Assembly: GCA_030539115.1 (NCBI GenBank)
Contig: JAUNSR010000006.1
Span: 1-64,000 of the forward strand
Origin: Bacteroidales bacterium
Lineage (GTDB): Bacteria > Bacteroidota > Bacteroidia > Bacteroidales > JAUNSR01
Length of the DNA: 64,000 nt
Direction: 5' to 3'
The notes beneath the pieces are model-generated. The model saw nothing but the letters and a program-made list of their open reading frames with translations. It was not told where the DNA came from and searched no databases. Made by a program: the position numbers and the translations under genes. Of the stretch, positions 52,725 to 56,885 are shown one piece after another; position 1 is the stretch's first letter, and each line of letters opens with the position of its first letter.

Positions 52725-53720
52725 CTAAGAAACACATTCAATAAATTTTTCAAAACATCTCTTTGCTCTTCCATCAATCAATGAACGCTCTGCCTCTTCA
52801 AGGCATGATTGAATATCAGCATCACTTTTAAATGTATTTATAGCATAGGCTGCATTTGCAAGCACAGTGTTTCTTTTGTCGGCTGAACAAGTATTGTTAA
52901 GCACGGTATCAAACACATGCGCTGCTTCAGCCACACTGCTTCCACCGTAAAGCTCCTCCTCTTTTGATATTTTAAGCCCTAATTCAGATGGTGAAACAAT
53001 TTTCTCGCCCTTTTTGCTAAAGCACTTGAAATCTCCGGTAAGTGATATCTCATCATAGCCATCAAGAGAATGCACAATCATATATTTTGCATTGCTTTGC
53101 TGAAAAAGATAATTATAAAGTCTGCCCATCTTTAGATTATATACACCAAGAAGCTGCTTTTGAGGCATTCCAGGATTAACAAGTGGTCCCATCATATTGA
53201 AAAAAGTTCTTACTCCCAACTCTTTTCTTATCGGTGCCACCTGTTTCATAATAGGGTGAAAATAAGGAGCGTGAAGGAAAGTAAAATTAGACTTTTCAAG
53301 AGTTCGCTTCAAGTCATCCTTGTTTTTCTGGAACTTAGCACCGTGAAATTCAAGTACATTTGAAGCCCCGCTTACAGAAGTTGCCGCATAATTGCCATGT
53401 TTGATTACAGGATAGCCGGCTCCTGCCACAACAAAAGATGCTGCAGTCGAGATATTAAAGGTATTTTTGTTGTCTCCTCCGGTTCCTACAATATCAACAG
53501 CACCATATTCCGACAAATCAAGTTGTGTGCATGTCTCCAAAAGAGCTTTTCTAAACCCGGAAAGCTCATCAAGGGTTATTCCTCTCATTTGAAACACTGT
53601 CATGAATGAGGCTATTTGAGAATTATTGTATTTATTCTCGCCAATATTCAGGAGTACCTTTTCTGCCTCATCCTCTGAAAGGCATTGGTGTGTATATAAT
53701 TTGTTTAATATATCTTTCAT
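52725..53720 (-). CDS. trpD: Anthranilate phosphoribosyltransferase
   Basis: 331 residues, standard length, with no fused amidotransferase domain. It joins anthranilate to PRPP. The PRPP-binding signature GTGGDNKNTFNISTAASFV and the anthranilate-binding segments KHGNYAATSVSGASN and VRTFFNMMGPLVNP are intact. It lies 49 bp after trpE, where trpG would normally be found in Bacteroidales. Confidence 0.96.
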   Translation of the reverse strand: MKDILNKLYTHQCLSEDEAEKVLLNIGENKYNNSQIASFMTVFQMRGITLDELSGFRKALLETCTQLDLSEYGAVDIVGTGGDNKNTFNISTAASFVVAGAGYPVIKHGNYAATSVSGASNVLEFHGAKFQKNKDDLKRTLEKSNFTFLHAPYFHPIMKQVAPIRKELGVRTFFNMMGPLVNPGMPQKQLLGVYNLKMGRLYNYLFQQSNAKYMIVHSLDGYDEISLTGDFKCFSKKGEKIVSPSELGLKISKEEELYGGSSVAEAAHVFDTVLNNTCSADKRNTVLANAAYAINTFKSDADIQSCLEEAERSLIDGRAKRCFEKFIECVS

Positions 53721-53769
53721 CTTATCCTACATTATAAAATTCGTACGTTTACTTTATTTTCTCAATCAA

Positions 53770-55248
53770 TCATTTCACAAAGGAAAGATTATTTGCCTTT
53801 GAACAGTCATCAGCCAGAATAATAGCTTTTCTTAAAGCCCCTAATTTATTGTGAACCTCCTGAAGCTCATTCTCCGGGTCAGATTTGGCAACAATTCCGC
53901 CGCCGGCCTGAAAGAAAAGAGTATTTTCCTTACTCAAAAAGCTTCTTATGGTGATAGCCTGATTTACATCGCCATCAAAACCGATATAACCTATACAGCC
54001 ACCGTAAAAGCCTCTTGCCTGTGGCTCCAGCTCTCCGATTATTTGCAAAGCCCTGACTTTAGGCGCTCCTGAAAGAGTACCGGCAGGGAAAGTATCCAAG
54101 AATATCTGCATAGGATTATCCTTCGTTTTCAACTCTCCCGTAACCCTTGAAACGATATGAATTACGTGAGAATAATATTGAAGCTCCTTAAACTTCTTTA
54201 CATGAACATTCTCAGCATGTCTTGAGAGATCATTTCTTGCCAAATCAACAAGCATTACATGTTCAGCATTTTCTTTTGGATCTTTCAATAGAGCTTCAGA
54301 AATCAATGCATCCTGTTTTTCATCACCGCTTCTTTTAAATGTCCCTGCAATAGGATCTATATAAGCCTCATCACCCTTAATTCTAAAGTGTGTTTCAGGC
54401 GATGAACCGAAGATTTTGTAACTTCCGAAATCAAAATAAAAAAGATACGGAGAAGGATTAATTGATCGAAGAGCACGATACACATTAAAATCATCACCCA
54501 AGAAATGCTGGCTGAACTGACGTCCAAGCACTACTTGAAAGACATCACCTCTTTTGCAGTGCGCTATTCCTTTTTCTATAATATCAATATGCTCCTTGTC
54601 TGTGAGATTAGACCTTATTTCACCTGTTGCTGAAAAGCCGAAAACATCAAAATTGTTGTTCTCTATGTTTTTTACGACATTATCTATTGTAAGCTCCTCC
54701 CCTTCAGGCAGATTCTCAACAATATACATTTCATTCTTAAACATATTCATTACGATAAGATATCTATAATAGATATATTTCATGAAAGGCACTGTTTTAA
54801 AAGCCTCCTGTGAGGGATGAAACTTTACAGGCTCAATGAATGAGACTGCATCGTAGGATGTAAATCCAAAAACCCCATTAATGCCGGTTGGGTTCTGATT
54901 TGAAATTCTGCAAATCTCATCTTCTCCCTGATTTTTTGAAGTTACATCAAACATTGAACAAAAGTCGTTAAACTTCTCACTGATAAAATTCTTATTCTCA
55001 ATATCTATTTTAATATTTGAAATTGTATTATCCGGGCTTTTAATCTCTATCTCTTCATTCTTAACCTCGAAATGTGCAAGAGGACAAAATCCAATAAAGG
55101 AATAACTGCTCTCCGGGGTGCGGTATTCTGTAGATTCAAGCAATGCCGATTCGGGATATAAATCCCTTATTTTTAGATAAAGGGACACCGGTGTATGAAA
55201 ATCTGATAGCAAGCGTATGCTATATGTATTGAATTTAAATGTTTGCAT
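53770..55248 (-). CDS. trpE: Anthranilate synthase component I
   Basis: 492 residues. It makes anthranilate from chorismate with ammonia normally supplied by TrpG. The Trp feedback-binding motif LLES (residues 36-39) is present, so the enzyme is probably inhibited by tryptophan. The chorismate-binding core is complete (GDVFQVVLGRQFS, PSPYLFYFDFGSYKIFGSSPE, IAGTFKRSGDE, LPAGTLSGAPKVRA in the form TFPAGTLSGAPK, and YGGCIGYIGFDGDVNQAITIRSF). There is no glutaminase domain at the C-terminus, so it is not a TrpE-G fusion. It starts 119 bp after trpB. Confidence 0.96.
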   Translation of the reverse strand: MQTFKFNTYSIRLLSDFHTPVSLYLKIRDLYPESALLESTEYRTPESSYSFIGFCPLAHFEVKNEEIEIKSPDNTISNIKIDIENKNFISEKFNDFCSMFDVTSKNQGEDEICRISNQNPTGINGVFGFTSYDAVSFIEPVKFHPSQEAFKTVPFMKYIYYRYLIVMNMFKNEMYIVENLPEGEELTIDNVVKNIENNNFDVFGFSATGEIRSNLTDKEHIDIIEKGIAHCKRGDVFQVVLGRQFSQHFLGDDFNVYRALRSINPSPYLFYFDFGSYKIFGSSPETHFRIKGDEAYIDPIAGTFKRSGDEKQDALISEALLKDPKENAEHVMLVDLARNDLSRHAENVHVKKFKELQYYSHVIHIVSRVTGELKTKDNPMQIFLDTFPAGTLSGAPKVRALQIIGELEPQARGFYGGCIGYIGFDGDVNQAITIRSFLSKENTLFFQAGGGIVAKSDPENELQEVHNKLGALRKAIILADDCSKANNLSFVK

Positions 55249-56600: not shown

Positions 56601-56631
56601 AAAAAAAAGGCTGTCGTGAGTAACGACAGCC
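56601..56631 (-). terminator. Attenuator terminator of the trp operon
   Basis: Perfect 9-bp GC-rich stem GGCTGTCGT/ACGACAGCC (56609-56617 with 56623-56631), extended by A-T pairs, followed on the minus strand by eight T (56608-56601). It lies between the leader peptide and trpB. Its loop and 3' arm (CTCACGAC on the minus strand, 56620-56613) are exactly complementary to GTCGTGAG inside the leader reading frame (56686-56679). Confidence 0.9.
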
Positions 56632-56674
56632 TTTTTCTATATATAGCTTTTACAACGATTATAGATATGACAGT

Positions 56675-56728
56675 TTAGCTCACGACTTTAAAAAGTTGCA
56701 AGTGCCACCACCAAAATTTATTTATCAT
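56675..56728 (-). CDS. trpL: trp leader peptide with three consecutive Trp codons
   Basis: A 17-codon frame, MINKFWWWHLQLFKVVS, stop TAA at 56677-56675. Codons 6-8 (56713-56705) are TGG TGG TGG. It lies about 120 nt after the predicted transcription start and 44 nt before the terminator stem. A ribosome stalled at the Trp codons would leave codons 15-17 (GTC GTG AG) free to pair with the terminator's 3' arm and prevent termination. A ribosome that reaches the stop would cover this segment and let the terminator form. Chance occurrence of three adjacent Trp codons exactly here is very unlikely. Confidence 0.9.
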   Translation of the reverse strand: MINKFWWWHLQLFKVVS

Positions 56729-56855
56729 TGAAACTCTCATTTTTATCAAAAACTATTTAATTATTAATTATTTTATTTTTCCGTTCGAGATATATTCTCT
56801 TCGGAAAATTATTTTAAGAGAATAGTGAACAAATCCAAATCCTCCGTTATGCTTG

Positions 56856-56885
56856 CAAATGTATATATTATTTGGAAAATGCAAT
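56856..56885 (-). promoter_or_regulatory. Promoter of the trp operon
   Basis: On the minus strand ATTG (plus coordinates 56882-56885), 18 bp, then TACATTTG (56856-56863), a good -7 match with a near-consensus -33. Transcription should begin near 56850, giving a leader of about 300 nt. Confidence 0.65.

Follow-up and report, generated by a model that had tools for sequence, protein, structure and literature searches.

The leader region upstream of trpB in the 64,000-nucleotide stretch of Bacteroidales DNA analysed here (the window) very likely controls the trp operon by ribosome-mediated transcription attenuation. It is a homologue of the Bacteroid-trp RNA family and would work through capture of the terminator loop and descending arm by a strand at the end of a leader peptide reading frame (segment 2). 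Together, this leader and its terminator would very probably turn the trp genes on at low tryptophan. Read directly from 5' to 3' on the minus strand, the window presents a promoter-like sequence, a leader open reading frame (ORF), a terminator and trpB. The promoter-like sequence was already part of the initial annotation and is present as TTG-N18-TACATTTG; we take it to be of the Bacteroidetes -33/-7 promoter type, and transcription of the leader is expected to start near 56849. The operon has the order trpB-E-D-C-F-A (56552 to 50460) and trpG is absent from it, a gap noted at window positions 53720-53770. The features are as follows.

56884-56856, minus strand: promoter-like TTG-N18-TACATTTG, read from the sequence
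56740-56675, minus strand: leader ORF encoding MRVSMINKFWWWHLQLFKVVS and a stop codon, 21 amino acids, from direct reading and the start kept in relatives
56713-56705, minus strand: three tandem Trp codons (WWW), the putative sensor
56702-56695, minus strand: segment 1, CTTGCAAC, protector strand able to pair with segment 2
56686-56679, minus strand: segment 2, GTCGTGAG, antiterminator strand, within the final codons of the leader
56656-56650, minus strand: GTTGTAA, partner of TTGCAAC (56701-56695) in the ribosome-free minimum-energy fold
56636-56623, minus strand: segment 3, ascending terminator arm, from direct reading, fold and covariation
56620-56613, minus strand: target of segment 2, CTCACGAC, loop and beginning of the descending arm
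56617-56601, minus strand: segment 4, descending terminator arm and T-run, from direct reading, fold and covariation
56552-55368, minus strand: trpB, first gene of the operon
55248-50460, minus strand: trpE, trpD, trpC, trpF and trpA, the remainder of the putatively regulated operon

The terminator (56636-56601) has a 14-bp stem, A/U pairs included, a 5-nt loop and a run of 8 T, and segment 2 is exactly complementary over 8 nt to its loop and 3' arm; for both the terminator before trpB and this match, the coordinates of the initial annotation were right. The duplex between segment 2 and the terminator has an energy of -14.3 kcal/mol that none of 200 dinucleotide shuffles of the leader attained (p 0.005), and the pattern GTCGTGAG-N45-75-CTCACGAC occurs a single time in the genome, at this locus (the pattern is its own reverse complement and is thus listed on both strands). 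Folding of the 231-nt leader, a check proposed at the outset, gave -44.3 kcal/mol compared to -30.9 kcal/mol for shuffles (z -3.6), more stable than all 200 of them. The stretch of about 110 nt between promoter and leader ORF is itself capable of forming hairpins (56772-56850, minus strand; z -2.1), including TTTTCCG with CGGAAAA. The three Trp codons lie where they had been claimed. The leader holds two in-frame ATGs, at 56740 (21 amino acids) and 56728 (17 amino acids), and the initial annotation had chosen the 17-codon frame with Trp at positions 6-8. In most relatives the start codon sits about nine codons 5' of WWW (MNFLLTNTFWWW, MNLTSVNKFWWW), so the start is most likely 56740, which places the Trp residues of the 21-residue peptide at positions 10-12.

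To examine these elements in relatives, we searched for TrpB first in 60 and later in 393 genomes of the order and read the upstream regions. In 50 trpB upstream regions, two or three tandem Trp codons occur in a leader that precedes a terminator, and all 94 distinct aligned leaders carry WW or WWW (WWWW in one), the rows having been selected for TGGTGG. Compared to shuffles, the mean duplex z was -2.0 for segment 2 with the loop and descending arm, -1.8 for segment 1 with segment 2 and -1.6 for WWW and its preceding codons with a stretch 3' of the stop codon. Pairing with the ascending arm, as in a classical 2:3 antiterminator, showed no excess over shuffles in the trpB leader set (z -0.26 and +0.25) and was rejected in favour of the loop and descending arm. 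In an alignment of 30 sequences, with the same strands slid as controls, 94.1% of cells were paired for the antiterminator (23-47% slid), 87.4% for the protector (30-44% slid) and 93.8% for the terminator (32-58% slid), and 11 of the 14 terminator pairs have undergone double changes among relatives. The alignment of trpB upstream regions called for by the initial annotation thus shows conserved Trp codons and pairs that covary with compensatory changes, and its placement of an antiterminator strand where the leader ORF ends, facing the loop and descending arm, is borne out. A covariance model of the terminator and protector, built from the window and its relatives, yielded a wider set; although antiterminator pairing is not included in this model, the antiterminator was paired in 78.5% of cells (25-48% slid) across 89 distinct blocks. 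About three relatives (L018, L067 and L082) are without a clear antiterminator.

At gathering scores, Rfam gave no match in the window. The idea that the element is unlisted there, a point on which the initial annotation is silent, was dropped since a relaxed search recovered RF01692, the 'Bacteroidete tryptophan peptide leader RNA' (Bacteroid-trp), at 37.7 bits, below the gathering score of 49, with an E-value of 0.004-0.006 and an alignment over the full length (1-131). The corresponding element of Bacteroides cellulosilyticus and those of two further relatives reach the cut-off, and because relatives above the cut-off have it at the orthologous place, we describe the window element as a homologue of RF01692; judged by its sequence, it is a divergent member of this known family. 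Like the window element, RF01692 lies upstream of a trp gene in Bacteroidota (here trpB, in Bacteroidales relatives) and has a leader with Trp codons. Its hairpin, in which AAAUACAUAUUGG pairs with AUGUAUAU and cAAcuu with agUCgUaAG, recurs in the relatives, most of which keep the consensus pairs well; several of these pairs are broken in the window, which forms another hairpin instead. RF01692 and our model coincide on loci (for example, on contig 71 of genome G108), and RF01692 reaches its cut-off in 21 of the 393 genomes of the order compared to 174 for our model at E <= 0.001, an upper figure whose weakest matches include chance matches and bare terminators. The RF01692 model stops in the ascending arm of the terminator and contains neither the full terminator nor the antiterminator pairing; the detailed mechanism, with its antiterminator on the descending arm, may be new. 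Bacteroid-trp itself was published as a cis-regulatory element (Weinberg et al. 2010, PMC2864571).

The protector consists of codons directly 3' of WWW paired with the antiterminator strand. Segment 1 resembles the terminator loop and 3' arm in sequence, and the reading frame of the protector strand CTTACAAC with respect to the Trp codons differs between leaders, which argues that the RNA and not the peptide is under conservation. The helix has a conserved A-C mismatch (columns 47 and 60 of alignment A3, window positions 56697 and 56684; 21 of 30 sequences), which may keep the protector weaker than the antiterminator. The E. coli trp attenuator is built of tandem Trp codons, a protector, an antiterminator and a terminator. 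It shares with the window a short leader ORF with Trp codons, an intrinsic terminator before the first gene and a 1:2 protector, the latter covarying in relatives and weak in the window. By contrast, its antiterminator forms on the ascending arm whereas that of the window forms on the loop and descending arm; furthermore, the window operon starts with trpB, unlike the E. coli trp operon, and has no match to Rfam Trp_leader. As far as sequence comparison goes, the element is one of classical protector, antiterminator and terminator logic in which the antiterminator is formed on segment 4 and the loop, not on segment 3.

We next folded growing transcripts of 50 leaders at equilibrium, an approach that can only approximate a kinetic switch, using ribosome and polymerase footprint sizes from E. 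coli. With a ribosome stalled on the Trp codons, an interval of roughly 8 nt of emergence in which the antiterminator is favoured was found in 47-49 of 50 leaders (47, 47 and 49, with the ribosome edge set at three different positions), and shuffling segment 2 lowered this to 37 of 150. Such an interval was found in 5 of 50 leaders when no ribosome was present and in 0 of 50 when the ribosome was at the stop codon, the latter trivially so as segment 2 is then masked. These folds bear on the simpler two-structure layout of the initial annotation, in which an antiterminator competes with the terminator alone and a ribosome at the stop codon is the only mask. In the window, the predicted ribosome-free fold prefers TTGCAAC:GTTGTAA over the 1:2 helix and a short (2 nt) antiterminator-favoured interval persists, as this layout would have it. 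However, the alternative hairpin closes over segment 2, 45 of the 50 ribosome-free folds are without an antiterminator-favoured interval, and the protector pairing covaries in relatives and forms the core of the Rfam consensus hairpin. We therefore regard an attenuator of only two structures as improbable, and that part of the initial annotation was abandoned.

Once the transcript is complete, the terminator always exceeds the antiterminator in stability. Because the terminator wins once its arm has fully emerged, the decision must fall during transcription, making this a kinetic switch. With the polymerase on the seventh U and 14 nt covered, approximately 6-13 nt of the loop and descending arm are exposed and the antiterminator outcompetes the terminator in 49 of 50 leaders. 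From the computed parts, their conservation and covariation, and these folding preferences, we infer tryptophan control in the cell, ribosome stalling and the coupling of ribosome to polymerase, and propose the following scheme. When charged tRNA-Trp is scarce, a ribosome would stall at the Trp codons, covering or opening segment 1 and leaving segment 2 free. The terminator loop would leave RNA polymerase ahead of the descending arm, allowing segment 2 to seize the loop and zip along the arm, such that the terminator would not close in time and trpBEDCFA would be transcribed. When tryptophan is plentiful, the ribosome would reach the stop codon in or beside segment 2 and mask it, and the terminator would form; it would likewise form when the ribosome is absent and segments 1 and 2 are held in the protector hairpin. 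This scheme assumes that translation is coupled to transcription in Bacteroidota. The stop codon had been placed in or beside the antiterminator strand, and this is upheld by its overlap with segment 2 in 62 of 94 leaders and its position within a ribosome footprint of segment 2 in 83; in the remaining 11 of 94, it is too far for a terminating ribosome to cover segment 2, which counts against the proposed mechanism. In five leaders (L047, L115, L083, L076 and L082), the frame runs past segment 2 to a stop codon further 3', and a terminating ribosome would leave segment 2 uncovered.

Segment 2 and the ascending arm are alike in that both match the same descending arm, and no rival fold is as strong as the terminator. 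It could thus be argued that segment 2 is a mere copy of the ascending arm and that there is no antiterminator, the terminator being blocked directly by a ribosome or acting as a hairpin alone. We consider this very improbable given that segment 2 also covaries with the loop, which the ascending arm leaves unpaired (column 63 with 159: GC 21, AU 8), and that some 70 nt separate the Trp codons from the terminator 3' of them, a distance over which a stalled ribosome could not block it. Compensatory changes in the antiterminator include a TGA to TAA change of the stop codon within segment 2 that accompanies a CTCAC to CTTRC change in the loop, CAGGGAG with CTCCCTG (L030), and CGTTGTG with CACGACG and CACAACG (L063 and L078). 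At the position of the first of these changes, the G/A of segment 2 and the C/U of the loop show no mispairs across 37 leaders; approximately four changes map to the TrpB tree, all of them matched, although the number of independent pairs that the tree supports is too small for a sign test.

Our model also matched 128 of 395 genomes of the phylum, the weak matches among them including bare terminators; low-scoring matches (about 43 bits or less) without Trp codons were taken for such bare terminators. Of 45 further matches checked, 43 precede trpE, trpC, trpD, trpB or trpB2, and the best 25 matches outside the order all lie before trpE, with leaders such as MKTILNNTWWWNNLRQTS. For 2 of 20 extra matches (L282 and L287), the downstream gene is not a trp gene. 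The element occurs in Bacteroidales and in further families of the class, is conserved in dozens of families, and has among its carriers B. cellulosilyticus, Proteiniphilum acetatigenes, Paludibacter and Alloprevotella. Leaders of this type also precede trpB2, which encodes a TrpB-like enzyme (L271, L273-L276 and L288); in genomes G017, G018, G044 and G049, the trpB2 leader locus is the distant TrpB match of the first search. That an ordinary terminator of an upstream transcript lies next to a chance short ORF, without regulation, is compatible with the window sequence taken alone, but in dozens of families the leader is conserved together with its terminator and pairings, and this conservation, the location before differing trp genes and the existence of a known Rfam family leave this reading with scarcely any credence.

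Several trp units of one genome can carry separate copies of the leader, as seen at the trpE, trpC and trpB units on contig 19 of genome G327 (L269, L270 and L258). In the genome of the window, a second match consists of a WW leader, MNMFNVNNEYWWNSFYKNE, and a terminator, arranged as in the trpB leader, approximately 140 nt 5' of an unlinked trpG (L241:474-1305, contig 25), which passes TIGR00566. Its protector strands, CTCATTTT and AAAATGAG, form an 8-bp helix without mismatches, and its antiterminator, read by eye, forms 7 of 8 pairs using bases quite unlike those of the window. Upstream of trpG in two congeners (G001 and G004), no such leader was found.

Bacteroidota are the main Gram-negative phylum of the gut and hardly use Shine-Dalgarno sequences. 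Tentatively, and with slightly more doubt than belief, we suggest that their trp leaders represent a distinct, previously undescribed attenuator design, in which the loop is captured first and then the descending arm while that arm is still inside the polymerase, together with a regulon that comprises several separate trp units per genome (the trpB operon and trpG here; trpB, trpE and trpC elsewhere). Attenuation of amino acid operons seems little studied in Bacteroidota, the literature that we found consisting of predictions only. For Flavobacterium psychrophilum, another member of the phylum, strong clues for leader-peptide attenuation at amino acid operons have been described (PMC9723704), the parts of that report considered here giving no structure or mechanism. 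The covarying pairing pinpoints bases for mutation and suggests a purpose for the Rfam hairpin, and a leader that depends on a ribosome close behind the polymerase would provide a test of transcription-translation coupling in vivo in Bacteroidota.
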